36,492 bases of DNA from contig JAFZAP010000042.1 of NCBI GenBank assembly GCA_017557185.1, positions 1 through 36,492 on the forward strand. The letters are read 5' to 3'. Origin of the DNA: Prevotella sp. Lineage in GTDB: Bacteria > Bacteroidota > Bacteroidia > Bacteroidales > Bacteroidaceae. The position numbers were made by a program, and so were the translations under genes. Under the pieces are notes generated by a model. That model was given only the letters and a program-made list of their open reading frames with translations, searched no databases and was not told the origin of the DNA. This document shows, piece by piece, positions 6,042 through 22,204 of this stretch (the first letter of the stretch is position 1; each line of letters begins with the position of its first letter).

Positions 6042-6130
6042 TAATTGATAGTCGGAACTAGAAACTCGGAACTAGAAACTCGACACTCGGAACTAGAAAC
6101 TCGACACTCGGAACTAGAAACTCGACGCTC
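6023..6130. repeat. Heptamer tandem array at the end of lysA
   Basis: Two consecutive arrays with a 7-base period. 6023-6050 holds four units (GTTGATA twice, ATTGATA twice). After a 3-base break, 6054-6130 holds eleven exact 7-base units made of GGAACTA, GAAACTC, GACACTC and GACGCTC. The first array includes the lysA stop codon. The array ends 9 bases before the GT2 start codon. Confidence 0.9.
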
Positions 6131-6139
6131 TATAACACC

Positions 6140-7414
6140 ATGATATTCGACACGATAACTCTCATCTTGGGTGCGGCAGTCCTGCTACTCGCCGTTCTCA
6201 CCGCTCTGCTCAGCCCGTTCCGCCGCGACAAGTTGCCGGAGACATCAAAAGAACCGTCAGAAGAGCCGTCAGAGGCCCCTTCTGCCGACATCGCAACCGA
6301 CGAAACTAACCAAACTCCCCTCCCCTCGGGAGGGGTTGGGGGTGGGTATCCCCTCACCCTCCTCGTCACCGTTCAGAACAAGCAGGCACACCTGCTACGG
6401 CGCCACCTGCCCCAGCTGCTCAGCCAGGAATACGAGGCGGGCTACGAGGTCGTTGTGGTGGCCGAGAAGGGCGATAGCGACACCGAGGACATCCTCAACA
6501 GCTATGCCGGCAACCCGCTGCTCTACGCCACCTACGTCCCTGACTCGTCGCGCTACATGAGCCGCAAGAAGCTCGCCATCACGCTCGGTGTGAAAGCTGC
6601 CCACAACGAGTGGATCGTGATGACCGACGCCTACTGCTCGCCCGCCGGCAACCACTGGCTCCAGGCTCTCGCCAGCCACATAGCCGACAACACGACCAAC
6701 GAAGCTAACCAAACTCCCCTCCCCTCGGGAGGGGCTGGGGGTGGGTGCTCCCTCATCATCGGCTATAGCAACTACGACGACGAGGCGCGACCCTACTACC
6801 GCTTCGAGCGGCTCCAGCAGGCCTGCTACACGATGCGCGAGGCTCGTCGCGCTACCGCCTATCGTGCGATGGGTTGCAACGTGGTGTTCCGCAAGAGCGA
6901 GTTCATCGAGGGCGACGGCTATCGCGGCAACCTCGAGCATACGCGCGGCGAATACGACTTCCTCGTCAACAAGTACGCCCGCCGCCACCTCACCGCTGTA
7001 GCCAACGAACCCGAGGCATGGGTCATCGACGACGCTCCCACACGTCACGAGTGGCGAAGCCGACACATCTATTATATGCACACGCGCAAGCACCTCGCGC
7101 GGAGCTTCCGCCACCGTCTGCTGCCGTTCATCGACGAGTTTGCCCTCCACCTCTGCTTCCTCGCCGCCATCGGCATCGGCGTCTTCGCCGGTCTCACCAG
7201 CCGCTGGATCCTGCTCGGCATCAGCATCGTCGCACTCGTGCTCAACATCTGCCTCCGCACATCGTTCGCCCGCAAGGCCGTGCGTGCCTACGGCGAGGAC
7301 ATCGCCTCCTGGCGCCTCTACCCCTACGAGCTCAGCGGCATCTGGCACAAGCTCTACCAGCATCTGCGCTACTGGCGCGCCAACAAGACCGACTTTACGA
7401 CACACAAGGTGTAG
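6140..7414 (+). CDS. Membrane-anchored GT2-family glycosyltransferase with two repeat-encoded insertions
   Basis: 424 residues. An N-terminal transmembrane segment (about 3-26) is followed by a Ser/Glu/Pro-rich linker, a GT-A type catalytic region (about 75-285) and one or two C-terminal transmembrane segments (about 335-375). The nucleotide-sugar motif region reads EWIVMTDAYCSP, where most GT2 enzymes have DAD, and GEYDFLVN takes the place of the usual GEDxxL. This layout suggests an inner-membrane polysaccharide or glycolipid glycosyltransferase; the substrate is unknown. Two copies of a dispersed GC-rich repeat (6301-6347 and 6700-6746) lie inside the frame and encode NQTPLPSGGVGGG and NQTPLPSGGAGGG; the second interrupts the catalytic domain. 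Starts 9 bases after the heptamer array. Confidence 0.8.
   Translation: MIFDTITLILGAAVLLLAVLTALLSPFRRDKLPETSKEPSEEPSEAPSADIATDETNQTPLPSGGVGGGYPLTLLVTVQNKQAHLLRRHLPQLLSQEYEAGYEVVVVAEKGDSDTEDILNSYAGNPLLYATYVPDSSRYMSRKKLAITLGVKAAHNEWIVMTDAYCSPAGNHWLQALASHIADNTTNEANQTPLPSGGAGGGCSLIIGYSNYDDEARPYYRFERLQQACYTMREARRATAYRAMGCNVVFRKSEFIEGDGYRGNLEHTRGEYDFLVNKYARRHLTAVANEPEAWVIDDAPTRHEWRSRHIYYMHTRKHLARSFRHRLLPFIDEFALHLCFLAAIGIGVFAGLTSRWILLGISIVALVLNICLRTSFARKAVRAYGEDIASWRLYPYELSGIWHKLYQHLRYWRANKTDFTTHKV
6301..6347 (+). repeat. Dispersed GC-rich palindromic repeat, copy 1, inside the GT2 gene
   Basis: 47-base copy whose core CCCCTCCC-CTC-GGGAGGGG is a perfect 8-bp inverted repeat with a 3-base loop, followed by a G-rich tail TTGGGGGTGGG. 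It differs from copy 2 (6700-6746) at two positions. It is in frame and falls in the linker between the N-terminal membrane segment and the catalytic domain. Confidence 0.9.
6700..6746 (+). repeat. Dispersed GC-rich palindromic repeat, copy 2, inside the GT2 gene
   Basis: Same 47-base unit as copy 1, same orientation and same reading frame. It sits in the catalytic domain between IADNTTNEA and CSLIIGYSN. A shorter third copy is at 8543-8577. Confidence 0.9.
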
Positions 7415-7420
7415 TGGATA

Positions 7421-7455
7421 GTTGAGAGTTGAGAGTTGAGAGTTGATAGTTGATG
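7421..7455. repeat. Heptamer tandem array after the GT2 gene
   Basis: Five exact 7-base units: GTTGAGA three times, GTTGATA, GTTGATG. A related heptamer GTGGATA precedes it and begins on the last base of the GT2 stop codon (7412-7414). The unit matches the first array after lysA. Confidence 0.9.
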
Positions 7456-8420: not shown

Positions 8421-8508
8421 ATGGAGCAATGCTCTGTACCTTATGGAGCAATGCTCTGTAGCAACTGGAACAATGCTCTGTAGCAACTGGAACAATGCTC
8501 TGTAACAA
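8421..8508. repeat. 22-base-period palindromic array, four units
   Basis: Four units of exactly 22 bases (8421, 8443, 8465, 8487) with no gaps. Units 1 and 2 contain the perfect palindrome GAGCA-A-TGCTC; units 3 and 4 have GAACAATGCTC. The conserved remainder is CTGTA(G/A)CAA. It lies between the convergent GT4-like and ppiD-like genes and ends 5 bases from the terminator hairpin at 8514. No open frame persists through it. Confidence 0.95.
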
Positions 8509-8513
8509 CAAAA

Positions 8514-14346: not shown

Positions 14347-15585
14347 GTGAAACTTTTTAAAAGGATTTTAAGACCTCTTTTCGGCATTCTGCTACTCATT
14401 GCGGGCGGTGGAACAAATGTGTATGCCGACATCAGCCTCACGCCCGAGGAGGCACTCCGCATCGACTCCACCATCAGCATCTCGTTGCTCACATGCGAGC
14501 CCGGGCAGAAATCGTATAGCCTCTACGGACATACGGCCATTCACTATGTGAACACCGAGCGGGGAATCGACATCGCCGTGAACTACGGCATCTTCGACAT
14601 GAGCAAGTCGTTCTTCGTGCCGAGGTTCATCCTGGGCTGGACGGATTACCTCATGGGGATTCAGCCCTACGACTACTTCTGTCAGACTTATGCCTACGAG
14701 CGAAGGGGAATCATCGAGCAGGAGCTCAATATCCCAGCCGAAGAGAAGATTCGCTTCGCCGAAGCCATCGAGGTAAACTACAAGCCCGAGAATCGCGAAT
14801 ACCGCTACAACATCTTCTATAATAATTGCACGACGAAGGCGCGCGACATGATTCTCGGCTCGATGAAGACAACCTTCAAGCGGAAAGACGGCGGCCCCTC
14901 GTTCCGCGAACTCACTCATCAATGCACGAAGGATTACCCGTGGACGGAATGCGGCAACGACCTGTTGCTGGGCGTGTTGGCCGACCGACCCACCAACGTG
15001 AGCGAACAACAGTTCCTGCCCTTCAACCTGATGGAAGACTTCGAAACGGCCACAATCTGCGATAGCATTCCCCTCGTGAGCGCAACGAAAGTCGTCGTCC
15101 CGATGTTCAACGACCCCGCCGAGAAGGAATTCCCGCTGAGCCCCACCGCTTGTGCCCTCATCGTAGCGCTCATCATCTTTGCGGTAACGATAGCCGAATT
15201 AGTGATGCACAAGCGCTTCTGGGGCTTCGACCTCGTGTTGCTGCTCCTCATCGGTTTTTGCGGGCTCATCCTCACGGCCATGTTCTTCTCGGAACACCCG
15301 ACGGTGAAAATCAACCTCCAGATACTTTTGCTCAATCCGCTGGCAGCGGTGTGCCTGTGGCCCGTCGTCAGAAACGAGCGGAGAGGCCGCTCTCATTGGT
15401 TCTGGAATGTCTACGCCGTCTGCCTGGTTCTCTTCCTGCTGGGCAATTTCGTGCAATGCTATGCGGAAGGCACCAATATTTTGGCATCATCTTTGCTCAT
15501 CTGGAGCGGAGCGAAACATCGATCCGTAAATCGAAAATTGGTAAATCGTAAATCCATAAATCGTAAATCCATAAATCGTAAATGA
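14347..15585 (+). CDS. lnb: Lnb-like lipoprotein N-acyltransferase (DUF4105 domain)
   Basis: 412 residues. A signal peptide or anchor (about 1-27), a periplasmic DUF4105 domain (about 40-200) with the family's conserved C50 (LLTCEPGQ), H62 (LYGHTAI) and C161 (FYNNCTTKARD), and four transmembrane segments (about 265-285, 292-315, 322-340, 354-375). Pfam now names DUF4105 after Lnb, which N-acylates lipoproteins in Bacteroides, where the enterobacterial Lnt is missing; the assignment rests on that family link. Start is GTG, with the signal peptide beginning there. The last ~20 residues are encoded by a 15-base in-frame repeat (NRKSI) and look non-native. Its stop overlaps the next start (ATGA), so the two genes are translationally coupled. 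Confidence 0.75.
   Translation: MKLFKRILRPLFGILLLIAGGGTNVYADISLTPEEALRIDSTISISLLTCEPGQKSYSLYGHTAIHYVNTERGIDIAVNYGIFDMSKSFFVPRFILGWTDYLMGIQPYDYFCQTYAYERRGIIEQELNIPAEEKIRFAEAIEVNYKPENREYRYNIFYNNCTTKARDMILGSMKTTFKRKDGGPSFRELTHQCTKDYPWTECGNDLLLGVLADRPTNVSEQQFLPFNLMEDFETATICDSIPLVSATKVVVPMFNDPAEKEFPLSPTACALIVALIIFAVTIAELVMHKRFWGFDLVLLLLIGFCGLILTAMFFSEHPTVKINLQILLLNPLAAVCLWPVVRNERRGRSHWFWNVYAVCLVLFLLGNFVQCYAEGTNILASSLLIWSGAKHRSVNRKLVNRKSINRKSINRK
15524..15583 (+). repeat. 15-base in-frame tandem repeat encoding the Lnb-like C-terminus
   Basis: About four units of 15 bases built from TAAATCG and TAAATCCA. Because 15 is a multiple of three, the frame stays open and reads VNRK/SINRK repeatedly. The last, incomplete unit provides the TGA stop and the ATG of the next gene. 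Confidence 0.85.
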
Positions 15586-20736: not shown

Positions 20737-21462
20737 ATGGTCGGCATTAACATCAACAACCTGAAAAAGTCGTTCGGCGAGAATGTAGCCGTCGACATCG
20801 ATCATTTTGAAATCCACAAGGGCGATATGCTCGGACTTGTCGGTAACAACGGAGCCGGTAAGACCACTCTCTTCCGTCTGTTGCTCGACTTGCTCGAAGC
20901 CAACGAGGGCGAAATAGGAATCATCCATCCCTCCGCAGAGGCTTCCATCAATCCCGCCAAGAGCGAGGAGTGGAAACAATTCACCGGAGCCTACATCGAC
21001 GAGGCCTTCCTCATCGACTTCCTCACACCCGAGGAGTACTTCCAGTTCGTGGCTCAGGCAAACCGTATGACGCAGGAGGAAACCGACGAACGGCTGGCTC
21101 CCTTCGAGCATTTCATGCAAGGCGAGATCCTGGGACAGAAGAAACTCATCCGCGACCTGAGTGCGGGCAACAAGCAGAAGGTGGGTATCATCTCGACGAT
21201 GCTCACCCGACCCGACCTGATCATTCTCGACGAGCCGTTCAACTTCCTCGACCCGTCGTCGCAGATCATCCTGAAGCGTCTGCTCAAAGAGTATCACGAG
21301 ACCACAGGTGCCACCATCCTCATCTCCAGTCACAACCTGCAGCACACCATCGACATCTCGACGCGTATCGCACTACTGGAGAAAGGCCACATAGTGAAGG
21401 ATCTGCTCAACGAAGCCGGCAGCGCAGAAGCTGAACTTGAGCAATACTTCAACGTAGAATAA
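20737..21462 (+). CDS. ABC transporter ATP-binding protein (permease not in window)
   Basis: 241 residues. Walker A GNNGAGKTT, Q-loop region YIDEAFLIDFLTPEE, signature LSAGNKQKVGI, Walker B LIILDEPFNFLD and switch histidine in SSHNLQHT, in the order of a Bacteroidetes ABC-2 type exporter ATPase. The final residues are acidic. ABC-2 exporters of this kind usually have a membrane partner next to them; none is present here, as the gene is followed by a terminator and a long repeat array. Substrate unknown. A hairpin separates it from secA and no own promoter box is evident. Confidence 0.85.
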   Translation: MVGININNLKKSFGENVAVDIDHFEIHKGDMLGLVGNNGAGKTTLFRLLLDLLEANEGEIGIIHPSAEASINPAKSEEWKQFTGAYIDEAFLIDFLTPEEYFQFVAQANRMTQEETDERLAPFEHFMQGEILGQKKLIRDLSAGNKQKVGIISTMLTRPDLIILDEPFNFLDPSSQIILKRLLKEYHETTGATILISSHNLQHTIDISTRIALLEKGHIVKDLLNEAGSAEAELEQYFNVE

Positions 21463-21505: not shown

Positions 21506-21538
21506 CGCCCCGTTACTCGCAAGTAGCGGGGCGTTTCT
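21506..21538 (+). terminator. Intrinsic terminator of the ABC ATPase gene
   Basis: 12-bp stem CGCCCCGTTACT / AGTAGCGGGGCG with one G-T pair and loop CGCA, followed by TTTCT. Confidence 0.75.
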
Positions 21539-21568
21539 AATACACCTATACCATTCCTCCAATATTTC

Positions 21569-21876
21569 TAGAGCAATCATCCGCTTCAATAAATTAAGTT
21601 AATTTGATGAGTAAATTAAGTTAATTTATAAAGCAAATTAAGTTATTTTACTGAGTAAATTAAGTTAATTTACCGAACAAATTAAGTTAATTTGCTGAAC
21701 AAAATCAGTTAATTCATAAAATCAAAGCAATCTTCTACATAAACTAGAGCATGCTTCTATACAAACGAGAGCATGCTTCTATACGAACGAGAGCATGCTT
21801 CTATACAAACGAGAGCATGCTTCTGGATGAACTAGAGCATGCTTCTGGATGAACTAGAGCATGCCTCTATACAAAT
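21569..21876. repeat. 22-base-period array, 14 units in one unbroken phase
   Basis: 308 bases = 14 x 22 without a single indel. Unit 1 (21569) starts TAGAGCAATC. Units 2-7 (21591-21722) carry AAATTAA-G-TTAATTT, a perfect 7-bp palindrome in units 2, 3, 5 and 6 and diverged in units 4 and 7. Unit 8 (21723) is intermediate. Units 9-14 (21745-21876) carry AGCATGCT, a perfect 8-bp palindrome in all but the last, with tails alternating between CTATACAAAC and CTGGATGAAC. The array fills most of the 487-base gap between convergent genes (21463-21949) and stops 3 bases before the hairpin at 21880. Confidence 0.95.
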
Positions 21877-21879
21877 GAA

Positions 21880-21916
21880 ATGGGAAGACGAACGGAATCA
21901 TCCGCTGTCTTCCCAT
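21880..21916 (-). terminator. Terminator of the yebC-TSCPD operon, possibly bidirectional
   Basis: Perfect 10-bp stem ATGGGAAGAC / GTCTTCCCAT, with a further inner CGG/CCG pairing. The minus strand continues TTTCATTTG, the plus strand CGTTCTTTTG. Confidence 0.7.
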
Positions 21917-21949: not shown

Positions 21950-22204
21950 TCAACTGAGCACTTCGTCGAGCGCACGCGACAACTGGTCGGGACAACTGGT
22001 CGGTTTGCTGCCGCAGGTGATGCCTTTCAGCATATCCCTGACTTCCTGAGCCTTCCGACCCGTCACCAACTTACAAACACCTTTCAGGTTGCCGTTGCAG
22101 CCGCCCTCAAAGCGGATGTCCTCAATCACGCCGTCGTCGCTGACGACAACTTCAATCAGACGACTACAAGTTCCCTGCGTCTGATACTGCACACGCTTGC
22201 TCAT
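21950..22204 (-). CDS. Small TSCPD-domain protein (TIGR03905 type)
   Basis: 84 residues, complete. It contains the diagnostic TSCPD motif in GSKPTSCPDQL near the C-terminus and conserved glycine/cysteine loops (RFEGGCNGNLKG, VTGRKAQEV, LKGITCG). The domain is also found at the end of some ribonucleotide reductases, but the function of the small stand-alone form is unknown; the cysteines suggest metal or redox chemistry. It follows yebC by 25 bases and uses the same terminator, so the two form an operon. Confidence 0.85.
   Translation of the reverse strand: MSKRVQYQTQGTCSRLIEVVVSDDGVIEDIRFEGGCNGNLKGVCKLVTGRKAQEVRDMLKGITCGSKPTSCPDQLSRALDEVLS

Follow-up and report, generated by a model that had tools for sequence, protein, structure and literature searches.

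Dispersed repeats of bacteria are usually recognised by their conserved sequence. REP and BIME sequences are abundant intergenic palindromes of 20-40 bp in alternating orientation, for which a role in supercoiling has been proposed and which are associated with RAYT transposases. The iterons of plasmid origins are direct repeats near 22 bp that support phased binding of the initiator, and the ends of Tn7 and Mu carry several transposase sites of about 22 bp, both systems showing target immunity. matS and parS, in turn, are palindromic protein sites dispersed over the chromosome, each being a single conserved site of one protein. The nearest described element, going by the available part of its description, is BrickBuilt, a MITE of Porphyromonas gingivalis with an internal 23-nt minisatellite (PMC4596501). 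Hereby, the 23-nt unit recurs in variable number between a leader and a tail with TIRs, giving elements of 84-991 nt (PMC4596501, available part). Among open-licence papers on 22-bp or intergenic repeats of Prevotella and on regularly spaced repeats in general, no description of arrays of the kind presented here was found.

Here we analyse such an array in a stretch of 36,492 nucleotides from Prevotella sp. (contig JAFZAP010000042.1), referred to as the window. An earlier note on this DNA had correctly recognised a local array, while missing its dispersed and regularly spaced nature. The array is a copy of a dispersed chromosomal element that consists of 15-bp dyads every 22 bp, with an AT-rich centre of A units and flanks of B units, and its geometry is kept while the sequences differ between copies, classes and species. 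Spacing and register are far more conserved than the sequence, so that similarity searches miss many copies.

Results

The phased dyad array occupies positions 21569..21876 of the window, as defined by reading in 22-mers, TRF and a weight matrix. Reading in steps of 22 from 21569 to 21876 yields 14 units with an exact 22-base period over 308 bases without an indel, just as the earlier note had it, and TRF calls period 22 at 21591-21714 and 21732-21875. The order of the units is B-A-B, the A block lying within B units of the GAGCAWTGCTC type. Hereby, a left B unit (TAGAGCAATCATCCG plus linker; 21569..21590) adjoins the A block (21591..21722), whose six units, i.e. units 2-7 of the array with the dyad AAATTAA-G-TTAATTT, each comprise AAATTAAGTTAATTT and a 7-bp linker. 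The right B block (21723..21876) consists of seven units, six of which are of the GAGCATGCT type. The three unit families that had been proposed reduce to two, A and B, as unit 1 (TAGAGCAATC...), unit 8 (CAAAGCAATCTTC...) and units 9-14 (TAGAGCATGCTTC...) are grouped by the weight matrix as one B family. The B dyad (TAGAGCA-W-TGCTCTA type) comprises 15 bp like the A dyad, and both have their centre at unit position 8, with the 7-bp linker coming next. Only these 7-bp linkers separate the repeats and unique spacers were not found, in agreement with the previous statement that the array is not a CRISPR. The window array may have 15 units rather than 14, because the 22-mer at 21547 (21547..21568), a candidate extra outer B unit, scores as B (weight-matrix score 10). 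Most copies of the element carry about four right B units, compared to seven in the window copy.

The array is located between two convergent genes, one for an ABC transporter ATP-binding protein upstream (20737..21462, + strand) and one for a TSCPD-domain protein downstream (21950..22204, - strand). Two inverted repeats that appear terminator-like by eye flank it, namely CGCCCCG...CGGGGCG followed by TTTCTA (21506..21533, + strand), 3' of the upstream gene, and ATGGGAAGAC...GTCTTCCCAT (21880..21916) on the 3' side of the downstream gene; the terminator scan of the window did not list either of them. A second array with the same geometry, made up of four B-only units (TGGAGCAATGCTCTG plus 7 bp) without an A block, is found at 8422..8509, also between convergent genes and 13.3 kb from the first. 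Arrays of shorter period occur in the window at 6052-6130 (period 7), 7412-7454 (14/21) and 15522-15583 (7/15), and the TSCPD gene contains a perfect 13-bp tandem duplication (GACAACTGGTCGG x2) at 21978-22003.

The genome from which the window derives (G000; 3.35 Mb, 116 contigs) holds at least 71 array matches at about 40 or more distinct places, a lower bound for which 40 of 47 candidates were scored. From the 39 stretches fetched we obtained 38 arrays with an A core, including the window copy; L045 and L047, which have no A core, were excluded from this set. Aligned on the A block, the units carry 9.9-20.0 bits of information at positions -4 to -1 (9.9 at -4), with a drop to 1.8 bits for -5 and to 0.5 for -6. 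The units right of the block range from 17.3 to 12.1 bits for +1 to +4 (12.1 at +4) and fall to 3.7 (+5), 1.9 (+6) and then 1.1 bits. For the 30 most similar copy pairs the mean identity on the left is 12.7/22 at -4 and 6.5 at -5, while for the 17 pairs with sequence on the right it is 12.6 at +4 and 6.9 at +5. Since both information and paralogue identity fall off past -4 and +4, the dispersed unit is approximately 4B+6A+4B, i.e. 308 bp.

The modal number of A units is six in G000 (29/38 blocks) and in RUG178 (G560; 12/21), and four in UBA4268 (G561; 23/30), RGIG4852 (G006; 19/24) and G051 (9/10). G000 contains a recent subfamily of whole elements, with close pairs whose cores are identical at 126-132 of 132 positions. 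From copy to copy the borders of the element shift in steps of whole units, and a conserved terminus is not apparent. The consensus of the outer left B units resembles the reverse complement of the outer right B units, the identity of left to inverted right units exceeding that of left to right units in 8/8 comparisons by 0.15-0.87 of 15 positions. Right-hand units are more similar within an array (12.05/22) than units at the same position in different arrays (11.14).

Several loci depart from this layout. At L237:16851-17150 (contig C2 of G000) B units continue in phase into a run of about five AATATATNATATATT units, which form a second type of AT-rich central block in a B array. Four loci of G006 (L052, L058, L059 and L064) carry two successive A blocks as tandem modules, with four or five other units in between at three of the loci and a single one at L059. 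An orthologous four-unit A block is kept in both L072 (G051) and L080 (G165); downstream of it lie a gene start and the motif TAnnTTTG, which we take to be a Bacteroidota-like promoter. Contigs C51, C18, C38, C33, C16, C69 and C11 of G000 end at or less than 1 kb from A blocks. Short-read assembly is therefore probably interrupted by the arrays, whose true number may exceed the counts given here.

To quantify the register we considered two lineages. In lineage I (G000 and RUG178; 59 blocks) the B motif GAGCAWTGCTC was sought with up to 2 mismatches within 110 bp. All 132 of the 132 B dyads near A blocks are exactly in 22-bp phase with A (6 expected), as are 126/126 when four blocks with duplicate cores are left out (55 blocks). 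Lineage II comprises RGIG4852 and UBA4268, with 74 distinct blocks whose flanking dyad, GAAAGTGSCACTTTC (sought with up to 4 mismatches), is unrelated to the B dyad of lineage I; here 98/102 dyads are in phase and the other four are displaced by ±1. Controls at least 400 bp away from A blocks are in phase in 0/12 (lineage I) and 2/12 (lineage II) cases. With looser motifs, 127/128 and 149/160 dyads are in phase, compared to 2/13 and 5/37 of the far controls.

The register is likewise kept between orthologues. Five orthologous G000/G560 arrays show 297 substitutions and one 2-unit difference over 69 aligned units (76 units minus 7 outside the arrays, with a few outer-end units that may be flank), and none of these 69 units contains a phase-breaking indel. 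As the alignment compares fixed 22-mers, an indel would cost identity in all later units, and no such loss is seen. Between the same two contigs, intergenic DNA outside the arrays has accumulated 1128 substitutions and 177 indels, i.e. one indel per 6.4 substitutions, so that about 47 indels are expected in the five arrays. Part of the differences between orthologues may reflect unit replacement, not point mutation. Spacing and register are thus conserved far better than sequence, and a simple slippage satellite was rejected on the basis of this indel test.

We further scanned the intergenic DNA of unbiased stretches by sequence-blind autocorrelation at lags 12 to 60, leaving out G012 (four contigs of about 330 bp each). 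Lag-22 arrays number 30 in 786 kb of G560, 18 in 430 kb of G000, 10 in 192 kb of G561, 6 in 200 kb of G016, 3 in 120 kb of G051, 2 in 130 kb of G006 and 1 in 80 kb of G516. G395, from a neighbouring genus, has 2 in 80 kb, one of them convincing, whereas G003 and G025 (80 kb each) and G010 (39 kb) gave none. At any other lag between 12 and 60, the harmonic 44 excepted, G000 and G560 have at most 6 arrays. Over nine contigs, lag 22 gives 3 to 14 peaks and the other lags from 18 to 26 at most 4 each, with none at lag 23. G560, G000, G561 and G016 are clearly dominated by lag 22 and its harmonic 44, while the numbers in the other genomes are too small for a statement.

At least five dyad classes share the 22-bp period. 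Apart from the A class, the units comprise B-only arrays, B units with a AATATATNATATATT block (L237 of G000), TACCAC-GTGGTA (G560), AAAACCTATGCTTTT (G561), TTCCCACGGTGGGAA (G051), TTCCC-GGGAA (G395) and AATTTGAGTCATATT (G016). Dyad symmetry exceeds that of column shuffles in 34/60 lag-22 arrays, the other 26 lying below that level. The tandem A pattern is carried by 6/150 genomes of the genus, with 178, 157, 29, 3, 2 and 1 matches; the A class was not found in the remaining 144, and the reversed control gave no match in the 150 genomes. Among 395 genomes of the phylum it occurs in G000 and one congener only, and in the named-genome scan all of the matches listed (80 of 91 stretches) are Prevotella or Prevotellaceae records. 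Among 70 genomes of the genus, a tandem B pattern is present in 5 (3 of them with at least 4 matches) and a tandem TTCCC-GGGAA pattern in 15, a set largely different from the B carriers, the controls being zero in both cases.

Taken together, the earlier proposal that spacing is conserved over sequence is strongly supported by in-phase class junctions and by orthologues that differ in substitutions and show no phase-breaking indel. Two findings had been named beforehand as speaking against a functional constraint. The first, broken phase in a related genome, was not seen between G000 and G560, and the second, absence of the array elsewhere, does not apply, since it is abundant in its own genome and in parts of the genus. 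The autocorrelation search that had been suggested identifies lag 22 as the dominant period of tandem structure between genes in four of the Prevotella sampled.

With regard to genomic position, 0/55 sampled arrays lie in coding DNA according to our own gene calls. One array without a right neighbour was excluded from the orientation count (55 to 54). The neighbours are convergent for 17/54 arrays, compared to 52/300 in the background (P 0.024), and divergent for 4/54, compared to 65/300 (P 0.014), both P values stemming from two tests without correction; 33/54 arrays have co-directional neighbours. In none of six groups does a gene family recur beside arrays at more than two loci. A count of 56 arrays enters some places twice, as array loci overlap contig stretches.

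In the two best-sampled species the arrays are also regularly spaced. Five contigs of G560 and G000 together provide 34 gaps from one array to the next, with a mean of 24.7 kb and a minimum of 12.0 kb. Gaps below 12 kb number 0/34, compared to 13.5 expected under random placement in intergenic gaps, whereby the 12-kb figure is taken from the same data and the two species are closely related. Random placement gives a mean minimum gap of 1.3 kb, and 0/5000 simulations match the observed spacing. The same outcome is obtained at three detection thresholds. At a looser threshold, however, two peaks only 0.4 kb from each other appear at one place on contig C15 of G560, and no array is detectable over an 86-kb stretch of the same contig. 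In UBA4268 (G561) the minimum gap is 6.4 kb (P 0.018) with a CV of 0.44 (P 0.009), a weaker result from a single contig, and in G016 the regularity fails (minimum 3.3 kb, P 0.56; CV P 0.73). G006 and G051 have too few arrays for an analysis of spacing. In a few cases arrays of different dyad class keep their distance as well.

Comparison of contig C42 of G000 (214 kb) with the largely collinear part of contig C22 of G560 gives a view of array turnover. Three arrays are common to both (24.9/192.2, 81.5/165.8 and 100.4/144.7 kb on C42/C22), and one further pair is uncertain across a local inversion. Four arrays on C42 are found in G000 only (1.2, 47.9, 139.8 and 197.8 kb). For those at 1.2, 139.8 and 197.8 kb a G560-only or weak array lies 6-15 kb away, and the one at 47.9 kb sits in about 20 kb of DNA that is extra in G000. 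Spacing thus appears to be kept while single arrays come and go, as judged from a handful of arrays on one collinear contig. The filled site C42:197729-197998 of G000 holds 269 bp, compared to 42 bp at the empty G560 site. No target-site duplication or precise terminus is visible at filled and empty sites, where the pairs are too diverged to show one; a fourth pair, L010/L215, was left out of this comparison as its alignment was not useful.

Proteins and features that might account for the arrays were sought as well. Y1_Tnp is present in G000, G560, G006 and G016 and gave no match in G561, G051 and G003, whose assemblies are possibly incomplete. G561 and G051 are array-rich though Y1_Tnp was not found in them, and a RAYT/REP origin was tentatively rejected in view of the three genomes without a match. 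A Y1_Tnp (IS200/RAYT-like) gene lies about 1.3 kb from the A-type array L291 (G000 C7:68887-69132), which we judge compatible with chance at the observed array density. PF09299 (Mu-transpos_C), sought as a sign of a Mu/Tn7-type transposase, was silent in all six genomes but equally so in all controls, which makes its silence uninformative. The arrays have no blastn match in plasmid and phage collections, and viral contigs contain no exact match to a pair of A units.

Covariation between the dyad arms, assessed in the 28 arrays that were counted here as having six A units, is absent, with Watson-Crick pairs below expectation at all 7 positions (left and right B units pooled); for left B units alone, pair 2-14 is slightly above expectation (0.57 vs 0.52). 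Hence the units are more likely to be DNA dyads than RNA hairpins. The A class shows a strong 11-bp AT/GC rhythm (z 8.1). In the other classes the W/S rhythm is absent (z -0.7) and AA/TT/AT steps show a modest excess (z 4.4, relative to a null that ignores dinucleotide smoothness). As the clear 11-bp AT rhythm is confined to the A class, shared curvature, as in gyrase- or nucleosome-like wrapping, is probably not the common feature and was rejected.

Discussion

The sampled copies of the element lie between genes, preferentially where these converge and seldom where they diverge, and in the two species sampled best neighbouring copies are separated by 12 kb or more. Since dyads repeat in tandem every 22 bp, dyad axes follow each other every 11 bp, about one helical turn, and the sites lie on one face of the DNA. 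We tentatively favour the reading that these lattices of presumed dimer-binding sites serve as chromosome-architecture sites, a view that we hold with slightly less than even confidence. Hereby, each dyad would be bound by a putative dimeric, helix-turn-helix-like protein, and neighbouring dimers, even on different dyad classes, would touch along one DNA face. A gained or lost base would not be tolerated because neighbouring dimers touch. The constraint on register across A/B junctions suggests that the A binder and the B binder touch each other or share one complex. Phased binding of a dimer, as proposed in the earlier note, is thus the best fit to the in-phase junctions and the lack of arm covariation, the protein itself being putative.

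The resulting filament might act as an anchor, domain boundary or supercoil barrier that is wanted about every 25 kb in G000 and G560, and new arrays would arise by whole-element copying along with gain and loss of whole 22-bp units. A role in chromosome architecture is suggested by the regular placement, the intergenic position, the convergent bias and the turnover with spacing kept. Several results weigh against it, namely the lack of regularity in G016, the 86-kb stretch and the paired peaks on C15 of G560, the W/S rhythm that is absent outside the A class, the 26 of 60 lag-22 arrays whose dyad symmetry stays below the shuffle level, the 144 of 150 genomes of the genus without the A class, and the 80 kb of G003 without a lag-22 array. 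A minimum distance separates the copies along the chromosome in two species, and if the arrays organise the chromosome, they would represent a domain-setting system of Bacteroidota unlike ParB/parS, MatP/matS and REP/gyrase. A bolder form of this reading, which we regard as possible though doubtful, is an unrecognised Prevotella architecture system whose sites are encoded by geometry, i.e. dimer-site lattices with one axis per 11 bp placed about every 25 kb. Helical register and inter-array distance, not base sequence, would then be the information under selection, so that groups of species could use dyad dialects of their own (AAATTAA-TTAATTT, GAGCAWTGCTC, GAAAGTGSCACTTTC, TACCAC-GTGGTA, TTCCC-GGGAA) that can be mixed in one lattice.

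The strongest rival, because of the inverted halves, the close copies and the empty sites, is a non-autonomous MITE-like mobile element, which we consider somewhat improbable. In this case the B units would be inward-facing sub-terminal sites for a trans-acting transposase, the whole 308-bp element would be copied, and target immunity would keep new copies at least about 12 kb away from old ones. The bounded 4-6-4 copies with their nearly identical cores, the inversion of the outer B units and orthologous sites such as C42:197729-197998 fit such an element well, and both the recent whole-element subfamily of G000 and the minimum inter-array distance could equally stem from a mobile element with target immunity. 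It accords less well with borders that vary by whole units and at which neither a precise terminus nor a target-site duplication was visible, with the distance kept between different dyad classes (few cases), and with a phase that is maintained between orthologues after insertion. Moreover, Y1_Tnp is unmatched in G561 and G051, both incomplete assemblies, and neither a plasmid or phage match nor an exact match to a pair of A units in viral contigs points to a mobile carrier. If the arrays are mobile instead, they would be a rare example of a tiny element whose copies are evenly spread by target immunity.

The dyad geometry is typical of dimeric regulators, and the arrays could thus also be operators of local regulators or, given the enrichment between convergent and depletion between divergent genes, transcription roadblocks or insulators between convergent genes, for which the two terminator-like inverted repeats around the window array might speak. 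We consider this unlikely, as most arrays lie between co-directional genes, no neighbouring gene family recurs, and local regulation gives no reason for regular spacing.

Neutral minisatellites formed by slippage or unit duplication, with 22 bp as a historical accident, would account for the whole-unit differences between orthologues and for the greater likeness of right-hand units within an array. To this extent the slippage with unit replacement that had been considered before holds, as whole units are gained and lost, while the bounded 4-6-4 element and the regular spacing are left unexplained by it. A neutral origin is very improbable and already largely refuted by the lack of phase-breaking indels where about 47 are expected, by several unrelated classes with one common period, and by the 4-6-4 borders and the non-random spacing; it would need an in-phase mutation bias in place of selection. 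A transcribed RNA with repeated small hairpins is the least credible alternative and was rejected, as the arms lack covariation and Rfam gave no match at E up to 1. Folding of both strands is indeed better than that of shuffled sequence (z -7.0 and -5.3), yet this holds for any palindromic repeat.

Compared to known systems, the architecture sites proposed here resemble iterons in consisting of direct repeats near 22 bp. They differ in their tens of chromosomal copies per genome and mixed dyad classes, and neither the plasmid or phage match nor the recurrent neighbour family of an iteron origin was found. With REP and BIME sequences they have in common abundant intergenic palindromes in alternating orientation, while being 15-bp dyads in exact 22-bp lattices, with arms that do not covary and a Y1_Tnp that is not found in all array-rich genomes. 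Like matS and parS they are dispersed palindromic sites, presumably bound by protein, yet each is an array of many sites, whose sequence varies by species while the geometry remains constant. Tn7- and Mu-type ends also present several protein sites of about 22 bp that are inverted at the two ends, with an immunity that sets a minimum spacing. The Prevotella element, in contrast, has no cargo, dyad-symmetric sites and an A block in the middle, and neither precise ends nor a target-site duplication were seen.

BrickBuilt resides in Porphyromonas gingivalis, which we take to belong to the same bacterial order as the array host. It is likewise intergenic, with 19 copies in one strain and tandem units near two helical turns (PMC4596501, available part). 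Dispersed intergenic copies are thus common to both, whereas a variable copy number of a single tandem unit is not seen in Prevotella, where the unit is 22 bp, the number of units is nearly fixed and no leader or tail is seen (comparison with the available part of PMC4596501). In further contrast to what that part describes, the Prevotella arrays place at least two dyad classes in one phase, their dyads differ by species, and their copies are regularly spaced along the chromosome in two species.
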